From IMG/VR virus record IMGVR_UViG_3300009163_000078, positions 1 to 39,424 of that record: a DNA stretch of 39,424 nt; one strand, given 5' to 3'. A program made the position numbers and the translations under genes. The notes beneath the pieces were generated by a model that was not told the origin of the DNA, searched no databases, and saw only the letters and a list, made by a program, of their open reading frames with translations. Of this stretch, positions 1,405-26,162 are shown piece after piece; the stretch's first letter is position 1, and each line of letters opens with the position of its first letter. Origin of the DNA: a virus.

Positions 1405-1659
1405 ATGGCACTAGGCAAAGATGGTAGCAGTCTTACTGCAGAACTTAATCGCCTTGCTGGTACAACTGGCAAAGCACAACAGGGTGCAGCAAATACTTAT
1501 GCTGGCACAACTGGTCTAGGTTTAGTTGCAGCCCTTAACTATAAAGCCAGCGCTGTTCGTCAACCTTCTGCATACAAAGGTCTTAATGCTATCTGCAATG
1601 AACTTGCATCTACTACTGGTAAATCTGCAGTTGCAGCACTAAGGAGCATAAACGTATAA
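1405..1659 (+). CDS. Small conserved head/neck-region protein
   Basis: An 84-residue Ala/Gly/Thr-rich protein with two GTTG-type turns (AGTTGKAQ and AGTTGLGL) and a predicted helix around AYKGLNAICNELA. An AAAGGA ribosome-binding site precedes the ATG at 1405, and the stop overlaps the next gene's ATG. I recognise no family name. Its place immediately upstream of the head-tail adaptor suggests a minor structural or assembly role; this is inference from context. Confidence 0.65.
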   Translation: MALGKDGSSLTAELNRLAGTTGKAQQGAANTYAGTTGLGLVAALNYKASAVRQPSAYKGLNAICNELASTTGKSAVAALRSINV

Positions 1660-2585
1660 TGACTACTTTAACGGATATGATTAATGAAGTATCTATTAAC
1701 CTTTCAGGTTATACACTTCAGCAAGACCGTGCTACTCATATTACGGCAGATGTAGCAGCAACTGCATCTACTATTGCTGCACCCATTACTCTATCCCTTG
1801 CATCTACTGACAGTGTAGGCAAAGGCATCATTGAGATTGATGAAGAACTATTTTGGGTAGATAACTATGACCGAGTTGGTAACACAGCAACTATTGCTCC
1901 TTATGGTAGAGCATATCTAGGTACTACTCTTGCTGCACATACAGCAGGTACTAAAGTTACTATTGCTCCTACATTCCCACGTTTTGTAATTAAGCGAGCA
2001 ATCAACGATACTATTACCGCAATTGGTTCATCTATCTTTGCAGCCAAAACAACTACTATTACATCTAATGCTGCAGTCTCAGCCTTTAGATTACCTGCTA
2101 CTGGTACTACTTTAAACATTCGTTCTATTCTTGCTGTTGCATATCAGGCATTAGGTGCAACTAAAGAATGGATTCCTATCCGTACTTACCGCTTTGATGG
2201 TAATGCTAACTCAACTGCATTTACCAGCGGTCAAACTTTATCTATATATGATTACATTCCTTCAGGGCGTACTGTTCAAATTGTATACTCTACTAATCCA
2301 ACTTCTTTTTCTACTAATGCAGATATATTTACAGACACTACTGGTTTGCCTGAGTCTTGCAAAGACTTAGTTATTCTTGGTGCCACCTATCGTTTGCTGT
2401 CTAATCTTGACCCAGCACGTGCGTCAATGGTTAGCCCACAGGCAGATGAGACAGACTCCAAGCGTCCATACGGCTCATCTCAATCACTTACTAGACAAGT
2501 TTATACTTTGTTTACTCAAAGACTAAACGAAGAAATAAAGAAACAGCAAGACAAATATCCTATCCGTGTCCACTATTCTCTTTGA
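1659..2585 (+). CDS. Putative head-tail adaptor (connector) protein
   Basis: A 308-residue protein. The N-terminal helix (MTTLTDMINEVSINLSGY) and the C-terminal helical part (about residues 235-300, LVILGATYRLLSNLDPARAS then LTRQVYTLFTQRLNEEIKKQ) are typical of phage adaptor proteins of the gp6/DUF6682 kind that sit under the portal. A beta-rich insertion at about residues 40-105 (EIDEELFWVDNY ... GRAYLGTT) resembles a module at the N-terminus of the following tail fibre, hinting that both contact the same part of the neck. The gene follows the head genes and precedes the tail genes, as expected. The family assignment is by architecture rather than a diagnostic motif. Confidence 0.6.
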   Translation: MTTLTDMINEVSINLSGYTLQQDRATHITADVAATASTIAAPITLSLASTDSVGKGIIEIDEELFWVDNYDRVGNTATIAPYGRAYLGTTLAAHTAGTKVTIAPTFPRFVIKRAINDTITAIGSSIFAAKTTTITSNAAVSAFRLPATGTTLNIRSILAVAYQALGATKEWIPIRTYRFDGNANSTAFTSGQTLSIYDYIPSGRTVQIVYSTNPTSFSTNADIFTDTTGLPESCKDLVILGATYRLLSNLDPARASMVSPQADETDSKRPYGSSQSLTRQVYTLFTQRLNEEIKKQQDKYPIRVHYSL

Positions 2586-2596
2586 TAGGCAGATAA

Positions 2597-4930
2597 ATGA
2601 CAACTAGAAAATACTCATCCAGAGCACAACAGACCACACTAAGCAGCGGCATTACCTCTGGTGATGTAACTATGACTGTAGGTTCTGGTGCTAACCTAAT
2701 GGGTGGTAAGACACCCGCAGTAGGTGAAACCTATACCGTTGTCATTGACCCTGATACGGCTCTTGAAGAAATTGTAGATGTAAGTAACTACGCATCTGGT
2801 AACACTCTTACCATTGCTAGAGGTATTGACGGCTCAACTGCGGTAGCCCACTCTGCTGGTGCAATAGTCAGACATATGGTTATTGGTCGTGACTTAAGCG
2901 AAGCCAATACTCATATTGAAGCAACCACGGGACACGGAGCAACAGGTGCAGTAGTTGGTACAACTAACACACAAACTTTAACTAATAAGACTTTAACTGC
3001 TCCTACTCTGACTACTCCAGCACTAGGTACACCAGCATCTGGTGTTATGACAAATGTGACTGGATTGCCTTTGACTACTGCTGTGACTGGAACATTGCCA
3101 GTAGCCAACGGTGGTACTGGTGTAGTAACTTCAACTGGTACTGGTAATACAGTCCTTTCAACTTCTCCTACATTGGTAACACCAGTGCTAGGAACTCCAA
3201 CTTCAGCAACACTTACTAATGCTACTGGTCTTCCTATCTCAACTGGTGTATCTGGTCTTGGCACAGGCGTAGCCACATTCCTTGCTACTCCTACTACTGC
3301 AAATCTATTGGCTGCAGTTACTGGTGAAACAGGTACTGGCGCTGTAGTCTTTGGCACTAGCCCAACAATTGCTACTCCTACAATTACTACTCCAACAGTA
3401 ACTGGTTTAATTCTTAATGATGCGAGCATTATCTTTGAAGGTGCTACTGCAGATGCTTTTGAAACTACTCTTACAGTAACAGACCCAACTGCTGACCGTA
3501 CAATTACACTGCCTAACGTAACTGGAACTGTAGTTACTACTGGTGATACTGGCACAGTAACTGGCACAATGATTGCCAGCGATACAATTGTTAATGCTGA
3601 TATAAATTCGGCAGCCGCTATTGCTTACAGTAAGTTAAACCTTAACGGAACTATTACCTCTGCCGATTTAGTAGATGGCACTATTGTTAATGCTGACATC
3701 AATGCATCTGCTGCAATTGACTGGACTAAACTTGGTATATCTTCTACAGTATCATCTACTGAAATTGGATATGTTGATGGAGTAACATCAGCAATTCAAA
3801 CACAATTAGATGCTAAGTTACCTAAAACTGGTGGCACTATGTCTGGTGCTATTGCTATGGGTACTAGCAAGATTACTGGTATGGGTGACCCCACTCTTGC
3901 ACAAGATGCTGCAACTAAAGCATATGTAGATTTACAACGAGATAATCTTATTAACTCAGCGCCTGGTATCTATGATACTCTGGGTGAAATTGCAACAGCA
4001 ATCCAATCTGGTGGAACATTCTATGATTCCTTAGTACTCAAGTCTGGTAGCACAATGACTGGTGCTCTTACCTTGTCAGGTGCTCCAACTGTAGACTTAC
4101 ACGCTGCAACTAAACTCTATGTTGATACTGTGGCTGGTTCTGCTACGGCTGCTGCAGCCTCTGCTGCCGCTGCTGCAACAACTTATGACAACTTTGATGA
4201 CCGCTACTTAGGTGCTAAGTCATCTGCCCCAACGTTAGATAATGATGGCAACTCACTTATTACTGGTGCTATTTACTGGAATACTCCTGGCGCTACTATG
4301 TATGCTTGGACAGGTTCTGCTTGGGGTTCTATCTCCTCATCTGCTGAAATCTATCGTTACAAGTTTATTGCTACAGGTGGAGAAACATCTGTATCAGGTG
4401 CTGATGCATCTTCTCAAACTCTTGCATATATTGTTGGCAAAGAGCAGGTATACCTTAACGGTGTACTTCTTGTTCGTGGTACAGATTACACAGCAACTAC
4501 TGGCTCAAGTATTACAGCACTTGCTGCCCTTGTTGCATCTGATGTGCTAGAGATTATTACTTTTACTGCACTCAGCGTAGTAACCGACATTCCTCAATCT
4601 ATAGTAGATGCCAAGGGTGACTTAGTTGTAGGTACTGCTGCTGACACTGTGGGCAGACTAGGCGTTGGAACTAACGGACAATACCTACAGGCTGACTCAA
4701 CTGCAGGCACAGGATTAGTTTGGTCAACAATATCTGGATACTCAGCACCAACTATTGGCTCTACGGTTGTTAACTCAGGAGCCACAGTAACAACAATTGC
4801 TGGTCTTACATTAACAGCACCAACTTTAACTGGAACAGTAACAGCATCTGGTGATATTACATTATCTGCTTCTGGAGCATTTGGAAGCGTTAAAGATTTT
4901 CAAACACTTAGCCTAATGGGAGCACTATAA
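2597..4930 (+). CDS. Long repetitive tail fibre protein
   Basis: A 777-residue, Thr/Gly/Ala/Val-rich fibre. The N-terminal ~110 residues form a beta-rich head domain that probably anchors to the neck or tail. Then come triple-helix-type fibre repeats: [30 protein letters not shown], and variants such as [14 protein letters not shown], which are typical of phage tail fibres. Residues ~388-407 hold a [20 protein letters not shown] module that recurs twice in the next gene. An Ala-rich coiled-coil-like stretch ([17 protein letters not shown]) is followed by domains with AWTGSAWG and [14 protein letters not shown], the latter a common fibre motif. It most likely forms a trimeric receptor-binding fibre. 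A short gap of 11 bases separates it from the adaptor. Confidence 0.85.
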
Positions 4931-22779: not shown

Positions 22780-23232
22780 TTATCTTACATTTAGTTCTAG
22801 TGGTTTGTCACATGATTGACAGTCGTTGAACATTTTGGGTGTTAGTATGTGACACCATTGGCACTCTGTCTCGCGTGCACGCTGTCTCATGTCTTCCAAC
22901 TCCCATAATTCTTCATAGACCCCGCCGTCCTGCAGGCAGACGGTGGGTTCTTTGTATTCTGCACGGGTATCTTCCCATGTCTGGGTAGCGAATACGAAGT
23001 ACGGTTCTACCCTTACGATAGCGCCTATCCAATCGTGTCCGCTTGGCTCTGTGGTTAGCAACCATTGATGTTTGTATTGCAGGTTGCCTTCGTCTACTAG
23101 TTCGTAGGCTCTGTCTGTTAGTCTTGCGTCTGCAAGTTCTACGCAATCTGTGCACAATTGCTCTTGCGCGATACATTCAGGGCAGACATTGCTGATGGTG
23201 AGTGAGTCTTCTGAGTATGTAACTTCGTTCAT
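22780..23232 (-). CDS. Double zinc-knuckle protein of unknown function
   Basis: A 150-residue acidic protein. The N-terminus holds CPECIAQEQLCTDC and the C-terminus CQWCHILTPKMFNDCQSC, each a likely zinc site. The middle contains YKHQWLLTTEPSGHDWIGAI and VYEELWELEDMRQRARETE. It is the first gene of the minus block and begins about 65 bases from the structured RNA region. An AAAGGAT site precedes the ATG. No family recognised; early expression is inferred from position. Confidence 0.65.
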   Translation of the reverse strand: MNEVTYSEDSLTISNVCPECIAQEQLCTDCVELADARLTDRAYELVDEGNLQYKHQWLLTTEPSGHDWIGAIVRVEPYFVFATQTWEDTRAEYKEPTVCLQDGGVYEELWELEDMRQRARETECQWCHILTPKMFNDCQSCDKPLELNVR

Positions 23233-23297
23233 CTTATATCCTTTGTTCTCTAGGTATCAACCAGTTGTTAATACGGGAATAGACAATCGGGTTGAGG
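23233..23297. promoter_or_regulatory. Divergent regulatory gap
   Basis: A short stretch between the first minus gene and the structured RNA. Promoters for the minus block, and possibly the plus RNA, should be here or within the RNA region. A/T-rich segments (TTGTTC near 23243, TTAATA near 23268) are visible, but no pair of hexamers with proper spacing convinces me. Confidence 0.35.
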
Positions 23298-24010
23298 GAA
23301 CGGACGGCTTCCCCGTTTTTGGGAAGGCGTTCTTAGTCAGCCATGCTTTGAATTCATAGTCTTTCCATATGAATTCAGGCTGACGGGTTACCTCATAGTT
23401 TCCATAGAAGTCCTGACTATAGACTCACGGCACTCGGCTTGGCAATGGTCGCAGATTATAACAATTTGATACACAATCGGCTTTATGATTGTTATCAAAT
23501 CGTTATCATCAAGCGTCAGACAGTCTTAGAAGCCAACGCTTTGGCTTCTTGTCTGACTTGCCAAGGCTGGAAACCCCGATAGGCTAGTCCCGCCGTAGGA
23601 GGACTCGTCTGAGAATGGCGTTGCGTGGGCTGTGTTGCCATTGCTTTAGCAATACGCAATACAGAACAGCGCCGACAGTCTGACGAGAGATGAGGGCTGA
23701 GTGCATGTCAGCATGAGGATGCCATAGCCCATAAGGCTTGGTATCCGATTGCGACAGGCGAGACCGCGGTTCACTGCGGGCGGACAGCCTTCGGTCCGAC
23801 CAGTCAGTGCGATTGCAGTGGTGAGGGTTAAACACCATTGCCAAGGCATTAGTTTATAGGCGGATAGATATATTTATTCTATCAGCCCCCGCAGTTAGTT
23901 TGTTTGCGGTCAGGCAGACAGTATGCACATACAGTCATCCTGCTATAGCAGTACTGCACGGCAGTATTAATAAAACTGTGGGTCTACTGACCCCAGGTTT
24001 ATTAATTTTC
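23298..24010 (+). ncRNA. Large structured non-coding RNA (candidate, ~0.6-0.7 kb)
   Basis: No plausible gene lies here, but the stretch folds into a chain of strong hairpins. Seen directly: 23298-23332 (GAACG/CGTTC, CTTCCC/GGGAAG); 23336-23384 (7 bp plus 9 bp); a closing helix 23438-23449 with 23834-23845 (12 bp perfect); 23464-23500 (14 bp with one bulge); 23515-23557 (8 plus 9 bp); 23604-23687 (CTCGTC/GACGAG, then three nested helices at 23617-23673); GGGCT/AGCCC at 23694-23730; 23764-23779; CGGAC/GTCCG at 23781-23798 with CTTCGG; 23859-23887; 23889-23909; 23917-23936; 23940-23951; 23952-23966; and a terminator-like hairpin 23967-24005. G634-U660, U621-G669 and G768-U775 (add 23000) pair only in plus-strand RNA. 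The loop 23480-23486 can pair with 23731-23737. The layout recalls giant phage RNAs such as GOLLD and ROOL; identity is unproven. Confidence 0.6.
23967..24010 (+). terminator. Terminator-like hairpin at the end of the structured RNA
   Basis: CTG-T-GGGTC pairs with GACCC-CAG around a TACT loop, flanked by TTAATAAA pairing with TTTATTAA, then TTTTC. The GC core is followed by an A/T-rich outer helix and a short T-run, so it may act as a terminator or a 3'-end stabiliser. Confidence 0.6.
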
Positions 24011-24263
24011 TTAGTCCTTTGTATAGGTATCTCTACCTAAAATATTCTGTCAGTATAGTTACAGGGGGTAGATAGACTGTCTGACCTGCACTTATATAAA
24101 TACTTCTATAGAAAGTGTTCGTTTTACCTGTTTGAACGGATTAAGTATATATAGAGAGTTAAATAGTTCAGAAGTCTTTTTAGAGCCTTCTTCACTCTGT
24201 TACAGTAAACTGTACAAACTGACTATTGTAGGCGGGACAGGTCTGCCCAGGGACGGGGAACCA
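24011..24263 (+). promoter_or_regulatory. Leader and probable late promoter region before terminase
   Basis: About 250 bases with no credible gene. A small hairpin AGGTA/TACCT lies at 24025-24038. Several A/T-rich, -10-like segments occur (TATAGT near 24054, TATATAA near 24092, TATATATAG near 24147), but none has a well-spaced -35, which would fit recognition by a phage-encoded sigma. An open frame from 24132 runs into the terminase but lacks a ribosome-binding site and looks non-coding. Confidence 0.45.
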
Positions 24264-26162
24264 ATGGCTGAGCATAAGGGATTTGGTAAAGGTACTGACC
24301 ATCACTTGGTTAAGGGTTTAGCCCAAGCCAAGGCTGAAGTTTTAGAGCGAGTGCGCTCTGGGGTAAGTATCCCCGCCGCTATGGTCGCCGCAGGTAAGAA
24401 GCCAGATACTATCCGTCAGTGGATGAATCGAGATGCGGTCTTTGCCCAAGCCCTTGAAGAGGCTAAAGAAGAGGGAAGCAAGTCATCCTTTGATGCCATG
24501 GGTATCCAGAAAGAAGAGATTGAGTTCTCAGACTTCTCACAGTTATTCCTAGACCAGATGGTTTTTCCTCATCACCAAGACTGGGTTGACCTACTTGAGG
24601 GGCGCGAACCTTCGTGGCTACACTCTAGTATGATTTATGAGCCAGGGGAGTTAAACCGCCTACTGGTCAATGTGCCACCTGAGCACGCTAAGTCCACCGT
24701 CATCACGGTGAACTATTCAACTTACCGCATTGCCCTCAATCCTAACATCCGCATCATTGTGGTATCAAAGACATTGAACAAGGCGCGAGAGTTCGTATAC
24801 GCTATTAAGCAACGATTGTCCCATCCACGCTGGCTAAAACTGCAGACCGCTTACGGTCCAGATGGCGGCTGGAAACAGGACGCAGATACTTGGCGCACCG
24901 ATACTGTCTATCTTGGGGGCGATGCGCGTAACTCAAGTGAAAAAGACCCGACTCTCCAAGCGCTAGGTATGGGCGGTCAGATTTACGGTGCCCGTGCTGA
25001 CCTAATTATTCTGGACGACTGCATCACTACGGCTAACGCCCATGAGTGGGAAAAGCAGATGGACTGGTTACAGAAAGAAGTTATTACCCGTCTGGGTAAG
25101 AATGGTAAATTGCTAGTAGTAGGGACACGAATTGCTGCCAATGACTTATATAAAGAACTCCGTAACCCCAAGCACTGGTCTGGGGGCAAGACTCCGTTCA
25201 CTTACATGGGGATGCCTGCAGTATTGGAATATGCGGAAGACCCGCAAGACTGGGTTACGCTTTGGAAAGAGTCAGACGTACCGTGGGATGGCGATGATGA
25301 CACTCCTAAAGAAAACGGCTTCTACCCCAAGTGGGATGGTCAAGCCTTATTTAAGCGCCGCTCGGAAGTCACGCCCTCAACGTGGGCACTCGTATACCAG
25401 CAAGAAGATATACAAGAGGACTCAATCTTCCCACCCATGCTGGTGCAAGGGTCAACTAACGGGATGCGCAAGCGAGGTCCACTAAAGGCTGGTGCTGCTG
25501 GACATCCTACGCAGGTAGAGCCTTACATTGTAATTGGCTTTGACCCCGCTATGGCAGGTAATGCTGCATTTGTAATCTGTACATATAACCGTGCAGATGG
25601 TAAGATTTATATTAACGACTGTATTAACATGACAGAACCAACTCCGCAAAAGATTAGGGCATCCATTGAAGAACTGGTTATCAAATACAAACCACAAGAA
25701 TTCAGAGTTGAAATTAATGCTCATCAAAAAGCCTACTCCCTTGACGATGAACTACGAAACTGGCTTGCTGGATACGGTGTACGCCTTGATGCTCACTTTA
25801 CGGGCAAAAACAAATGGGACACATCTTTCGGCGTTGCGTCAATGTCTAACCTCTTTGGAACAGTCCGCGAAGAAAAATTTCAAAAGAACAATCTAATAGA
25901 ACTTCCTTCTTCTGAAGGCAGCGAAGGTATCAAGGCTCTTACTCAGCAACTGCTGACATGGAAACCTAACACTAAAGGTAAGACAGATACTGTCATGGCG
26001 TTATGGTTTGCAGTCATTCGTATCCGCGAACTCATGCAGAACAATAGTAATACCTCTAAGTATCTTAGCAATCGCTGGGCTACTAAAGCACAGATGAACA
26101 ATAGATACGCAATCAACCTAGACGATGCCTTTGCAGAACAATGGCACGATATATATGGATAG
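24264..26162 (+). CDS. terL: Terminase large subunit with N-terminal HTH
   Basis: A 632-residue packaging motor from ATG 24264 (site GGGGAA). Residues ~20-70 form a helix-turn-helix (EVLERVRSGVSIPAAMVAAG, DTIRQWMNRDAVFAQALEEA) like that of small terminase subunits. The ATPase has an atypical Walker A at ~137-145 (VPPEHAKST) and Walker B LIILDDC at ~247-253, then a coupling segment LLVVGTRIAANDLYKEL. The RNase H-like nuclease follows with VIGFDPAMAGN, then VEINAHQKAYSLDDE, and ends with TDTVMALWFAVIRI. No separate small subunit is seen. It cuts and packages the genome. It is the first gene of the late block, 8 bases from the portal gene. Confidence 0.9.
   Translation: MAEHKGFGKGTDHHLVKGLAQAKAEVLERVRSGVSIPAAMVAAGKKPDTIRQWMNRDAVFAQALEEAKEEGSKSSFDAMGIQKEEIEFSDFSQLFLDQMVFPHHQDWVDLLEGREPSWLHSSMIYEPGELNRLLVNVPPEHAKSTVITVNYSTYRIALNPNIRIIVVSKTLNKAREFVYAIKQRLSHPRWLKLQTAYGPDGGWKQDADTWRTDTVYLGGDARNSSEKDPTLQALGMGGQIYGARADLIILDDCITTANAHEWEKQMDWLQKEVITRLGKNGKLLVVGTRIAANDLYKELRNPKHWSGGKTPFTYMGMPAVLEYAEDPQDWVTLWKESDVPWDGDDDTPKENGFYPKWDGQALFKRRSEVTPSTWALVYQQEDIQEDSIFPPMLVQGSTNGMRKRGPLKAGAAGHPTQVEPYIVIGFDPAMAGNAAFVICTYNRADGKIYINDCINMTEPTPQKIRASIEELVIKYKPQEFRVEINAHQKAYSLDDELRNWLAGYGVRLDAHFTGKNKWDTSFGVASMSNLFGTVREEKFQKNNLIELPSSEGSEGIKALTQQLLTWKPNTKGKTDTVMALWFAVIRIRELMQNNSNTSKYLSNRWATKAQMNNRYAINLDDAFAEQWHDIYG

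Follow-up and report, generated by a model that had tools for sequence, protein, structure and literature searches.

What does a phage carry in a long stretch without genes directly in front of its terminase gene? In the window, by which we mean the whole 39,424-nucleotide stretch analyzed here (IMG/VR record IMGVR_UViG_3300009163_000078), a gap of 1,031 bp (positions 23233 to 24263) lies between a minus-strand open reading frame encoding a Cys-rich protein (22780 to 23232), a homologue of which adjoins the RNA described below in relatives, and the ATG of the TerL gene at 24264. The latter (plus strand, 24264 to 26162) is annotated as phrog_38 and has a small-terminase-like N terminus. No convincing open reading frame was found in 23233 to 24263, and the record has no end repeats.

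The first-pass annotation had described about 0.7 kb of this region as free of genes and rich in hairpins, and the description holds. The hairpins are present in the sequence, as are the CUUCGG motif and the terminator-like hairpin (23966 to 24009) that were claimed with them. The plus strand of 23270 to 24020 is predicted to fold at -313.6 kcal/mol, against -227 +/- 6 kcal/mol for dinucleotide shuffles (z = -13.7; 20 shuffles), and the minus strand of the same interval gives a z of -9.2 (20 dinucleotide shuffles). Indeed, when 400-nt windows across the entire record are ranked by structure after GC correction, the top three all lie in this gap, on the plus strand. The sequence data strongly support the view that the gap encodes a large structured plus-strand RNA, which would measure about 0.6 kb, running from about 23254 to 23860-23912 and possibly to 24009.

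A covarying RNA core

A search of IMG/VR with TerL yielded 80 loci that were kept. One record among the relatives (L089; 79,356 bases) carries a pair of differing TerL genes, with 87% and 60% identity to the query, and is about double the usual genome size; two phages may be joined in it. A block immediately preceding TerL was common to nearly all of the TerL loci, and the structured part to some only. Searching with a 21-nt core motif gave 18 stretches, to which further patterns added more. The upstream regions together were too diverged for a single alignment, and families were therefore built from shared motifs.

Covariation in homologous regions upstream of terL, by which the first-pass proposal of a structured RNA was to stand or fall, was found in a conserved core at 23551 to 23808 (covariance model R1, E = 1e-50). 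The seed alignment contained 14 distinct sequences aligned by sequence alone, with the structure taken from RNAalifold. Among its 56 pairs, 15 showed compensatory changes, amounting to 40 compensatory cells, and 97.2% of the cells were paired. None of 500 shuffles reached the values for compensatory pairs, compensatory cells, or pairing, or the score for covariation; when the partners were slid by 1 to 3 columns, pairing fell to 31 to 42%. The R1 model matched 12 loci beyond the seed at E values of 1e-14 or below, in which the P4/P5 arms are divergent or missing, and one more match outside the seed (L113) was found later. With 24 distinct sequences, 21 of the 56 pairs and 76 cells were compensatory, in an alignment that was fitted to the covariance model and is hence biased towards it. 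By this comparative evidence the core is a real structured RNA family, previously uncatalogued, whose predicted central fold is kept in some thirty related phages.

The core is closed by P1, a predicted long-range helix (23598-23603 with 23795-23801) in which G-C changes to C-G at 23602/23796 in three members of the seed alignment and in 8 of the 24 distinct members. The P2 arm (23604-23627 with 23667-23687) is variable in length and has compensatory changes in 7 of 16 pairs. P3 (23692-23699/23785-23792) bears P4/P5 (23702-23730/23735-23760), an arm that is replaced in divergent members; P5 has four compensatory pairs and is otherwise invariant. All five pairs of the P6 hairpin (23764 to 23779) show compensatory changes. 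P3 and P4 hardly vary, so the pairing drawn for those parts is a prediction, and the part of P4 affected by a double change in L085 and L066, which would favor a local GCUGA/UCAGC hairpin instead, is less certain. A near-invariant motif, ACAGCCTTCGGTCCGACC, occupies 23784 to 23801; its consensus, ACAGCCTTCGKTSCGACC, retrieved 24 stretches from viral contigs, every one of them a member of the R1 family.

Several observations bear on the strand and on the kind of molecule. The plus strand, which had been preferred from the outset, is the more stable in all 17 members compared, the window included, and is the G-rich, U-poor strand of the RNA region. The region had also been called noncoding, and the core indeed has no conserved reading frame: its short indels do not come in threes, and stops occur in all frames. 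Minus-strand open reading frames of 98 to 189 amino acids within the region in L066, L073, L041, L059, L016, and L024 were rejected as genes, since they appear to be shadows of the RNA structure; L070 and L078 have an open reading frame that encodes a real protein, and the gap next to it is shorter. When the structure was predicted with G-U pairs left out, five G-U cells and no A-C cells were counted in the core; the 5' domain, with 32 G-U versus 23 A-C cells, is less clear. An element acting as DNA, such as a replication origin or packaging site with hairpins in one DNA strand, would suit an intergenic position between divergent gene blocks with short CAGTC/CAGACAGT repeats alongside. However, compensated helices across some 200 nt in a multibranched fold, G-U pairs in the core rather than A-C mismatches, and absence from close relatives, which means that the site is not essential, make this improbable.

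Ends, arms, and flanking block

The first-pass annotation had begun the RNA at 23298. A hairpin at 23254 to 23274, GTATCAACCAGTTGTTAATAC, lies 21 nt away from the start codon of the divergent gene on the minus strand and matches GTATCCACCTGATGTGAATAC in relatives in place and shape, with a C-G to A-T compensation between the two. Because of this match to the 5' hairpin of relatives, we place the start there, and the RNA probably begins near 23254. The hairpin adjoins the ribosome-binding site of the divergent gene, which leaves little room for a plus-strand promoter outside that gene, and a promoter scan found no promoter-like site on the plus strand.

The same neighborhood invites the reading that the structure belongs to the mRNA of the minus-strand operon, as a long 5' untranslated or promoter region. 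The adjoining ribosome-binding site fits this, as does a minus-strand promoter-like site at 23445-23416, inside the 5' domain of the RNA, whose -10 part is conserved in relatives that share that domain. However, promoter-like matches were no more common than in shuffles, and the uniformly greater stability of the G-rich, U-poor plus strand leaves a minus-strand leader very improbable. The promoter-like site could serve the divergent gene.

The predicted 5' domain (23308 to 23583) is common to L111 and L112 and is shared in part with L045/L108 and with L058/L109/L110. It contains hairpins at 23308-23326, 23336-23342/23378-23384, 23350-23357/23369-23376, 23458-23471/23493-23506, and 23529-23536/23541-23548, and an enclosing helix at 23438-23445/23558-23565; compensatory pairs are seen at 23352/23374, 23469/23495, and 23470/23494. 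The first-pass annotation had a 12-bp helix (23438-23449/23834-23845) enclosing a domain of about 385 nt. The match exists as sequence, but its conservation was not borne out. Forcing it costs 3 kcal/mol, and in L111 and L112 CTTGGCAATGG is retained together with its nearer partner TTGCCAAG while the distant CCATTGCC is absent, so the helix closes no conserved 385-nt domain. At the equivalent positions, L045 and L058 have AATAGTCAA and TTGACTATT. The native RNA probably does not form this 12-bp helix.

Other members put different parts around the same core. Those of the L021 type have another 5' domain, closed by ATACTCC/GGAGTAT and itself carrying alternative inserts. The 3' tail of the window RNA (23809 to 23912, extent uncertain, with a predicted hairpin at about 23865 to 23883) is common to L041, L047, and L059, whose middle parts differ. 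L021 and others have the core of the window RNA, and since the 5' domain, the core, and the 3' tail each have their own set of relatives, the window RNA is a patchwork. Judged by this sharing, the outer parts are swapped like interchangeable modules.

From about 23913 to 24263 the gap holds a block distinct from the RNA, which is also kept in phages without it. The block holds many short repeats and, in the window and in some of the relatives, the terminator-like hairpin. This hairpin (23966 to 24009; -18.9 kcal/mol, followed by TTTT) is a candidate 3' end of the RNA and also occurs in L002, which is without the RNA. Nearly all TerL loci, whether or not they have the RNA, keep the part at 24027 to 24263, which contains an inverted repeat (24117-24137), a near-invariant 25-nt stretch that is the best conserved in the region (24133-24157), and a hairpin at 24170-24191 in which both sides of pairs change across 71 sequences. 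Part of the flanking block can be recognized by eye in the ct2KA10 phages, whose TerL is 63% identical. The block may be a late promoter, a leader, or a packaging site. The many short CAGTC/CAGACAGT-like repeats of 23900-23990 and of relatives resemble binding sites of terminase or replication proteins, a putative assignment.

The block bears on whether the RNA acts in cis, as the start of the late mRNA, where it would govern late transcription or the translation of terL, for instance through antitermination. Such a leader would explain why the RNA invariably precedes terL directly and on the same strand, and the block's own covarying hairpin agrees with it. However, close relatives keep TerL and the block without the RNA, the terminator-like hairpin and the conserved block stand between the RNA and TerL, and the distance to TerL varies (556 to 910 nt from the core motif). 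We consider a cis-acting leader unlikely, while giving it some weight.

Distribution, role, and comparison with known RNAs

The site is constant and its occupant is not. In every member with readable flanks the RNA lies between the homologue of the minus-strand gene and TerL, and whole-record searches of eleven RNA-bearing records found one copy per record, adjoining TerL. The core was scored as present in 27 of the 75 TerL loci for which 750 nt or more of upstream sequence was available. On a quick TerL tree, presence of the core changes 18 times, 12 of which are forced by well-supported branches. L002, the window's nearest relative (TerL 97% identical), is without the RNA and has minus-strand open reading frames there, one of them matching phrog_289/16939. 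Minus-strand protein genes fill the site in L002 to L008 and in L070 and L078, with phrog_289/16939 also in L007 and L070 and phrog_464 in L003, L004, and L006. The upstream regions of core-negative L018, L026, L035, and L045 fold strongly too (a rough measure, with 12 shuffles each), and L031, also without the R1 core, is likewise strongly folded upstream of TerL. Further RNA types may thus occupy the same site. The core is 81 to 92% identical to that of the window where terL DNA is 72 to 84% identical, a difference that may equally reflect tighter constraint on the core. Taken together, the genome comparisons support the view of the RNA as an accessory module that occupies a fixed site and evolves separately.

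No R1 model match was found upstream of TerL in Streptomyces phage FlowerPower or the ct2KA10 phages, and a DNA search of named phages returned one weak match only. A link to a host or prophage was rejected: no relative came up when bacterial genomes were scanned with TerL, and 21 stretches with the 18-nt motif in bacterial sequence are about what chance would give, none of them fitting the covariance model. The nearest named TerL relatives after ct2KA10 infect Streptomyces (about 45% identity), and there are DUF4192 and mycobacteriophage-like matches. The host is probably actinobacterial, from among the lake Actinobacteria; since the bacterial scan yielded no host, we infer both this and the freshwater origin.

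At about even chances, we read the element as a structured noncoding RNA of the plus strand with its own transcript, serving in trans as a scaffold, of RNA alone or of RNA and protein, with interchangeable arms. It would be made as its own transcript during infection and would fold around the invariant junction motifs, with the core closed by P1. By analogy with what has been suggested for GOLLD and ROOL, it could then act in trans, alone or with protein, and recombination between phages would swap arms that meet variable partners. A trans scaffold is favored because close relatives dispense with the RNA and because the flanking block separates it from TerL. Counted against this reading are the missing promoter-like site on the plus strand, the scant room for one beside the 5' hairpin, the occurrence of the terminator-like hairpin without the RNA, and the near-lack of variation in P3 and P4. 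A special case of trans action would be a decoy or counterdefense RNA, whose arms mimic or bind host defense or regulatory factors and are exchanged in an arms race. Its cargo-like patchiness, the exchange of modules, and the protein genes at the same place in close relatives would suit this, but the pattern would suit any accessory function, and we regard this version as doubtful. More tentatively than the scaffold itself, we suggest a new family of large phage RNAs with a junction core and plug-in arms, recombined at a fixed accessory site upstream of terL and providing, in trans, a modular scaffold or a decoy for host factors that vary.

Few large structured RNAs are known from phages. The present family adds one without detectable relation to GOLLD or ROOL, with some thirty members and a well-supported core fold, and it shows RNA domains recombining as modules. 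It also offers natural experiments, namely, near-identical phages with and without the RNA and one core with different arms, so that function can be tested by comparison.

The first-pass annotation had suggested a GOLLD relative or a new class, and of the two the new class is the better supported. No Rfam 15 family matched the window at the gathering threshold, and none matched 23200-24300 meaningfully up to an E value of 10. Fourteen relatives gave no match at gathering, and further relatives at permissive E values gave only one tRNA and one chance match elsewhere. Membership in GOLLD, ROOL, OLE, or HEARO was accordingly rejected, at gathering and permissive thresholds alike. A divergent GOLLD or ROOL would share the size, the phage setting, and the less conserved 5' part, and in L112 a tRNA-Trp (CCA; 1624-1695, minus strand in L112) is encoded on the strand of the RNA, after the structured region and before TerL. 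Set against the Rfam result and the absence of tRNA genes from the window and 53 relatives, this reading is extremely improbable. The last 200 nt or so before TerL in L036 hold an insertion with a tRNA T-arm-like GGAGGGGGTTCGATTCCCT, in which ARAGORN and Rfam call no tRNA. In L107 (about 1200-2700) and L106 (about 3300-4100), minus-strand repeated hairpins like tRNA 3' halves lie between small open reading frames upstream of TerL, again with no tRNA called.

The packaging RNA of phi29 is likewise a structured phage RNA, much smaller and belonging to a different motor type. The window RNA resembles it in that the neighboring gene encodes the packaging motor, and differs in having no Rfam match and in being absent from relatives with the same TerL. 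By general criteria for large structured phage noncoding RNAs, the window RNA has a complex fold supported by covariation and no conserved coding frame. Highly expressed noncoding RNAs are known in actinophages, namely, Rhodococcus phage WC1 and mycobacteriophages (PMC10986025); these too are noncoding regions in phages of Actinobacteria, known from expression, whereas the window RNA is known from comparison alone. GOLLD, often found near tRNA islands, forms a 14-mer RNA cage, its expression rises at lysis, and it combines a conserved part with a less conserved 5' part (PMC12286853). The window RNA is similarly a large structured phage RNA of this two-part kind, but it has no covariance-model match, no tRNA island, a fixed place before TerL, and a core of about 210 to 260 nt within about 0.6 kb. 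ROOL, a large structured RNA of phages and prophages that forms an RNA-only octameric cage, is dispensable (PMC12286853), as the window RNA appears to be; the window RNA gives no match to the ROOL covariance model and has another neighborhood, and the exchange of arms is an observation on the window family.
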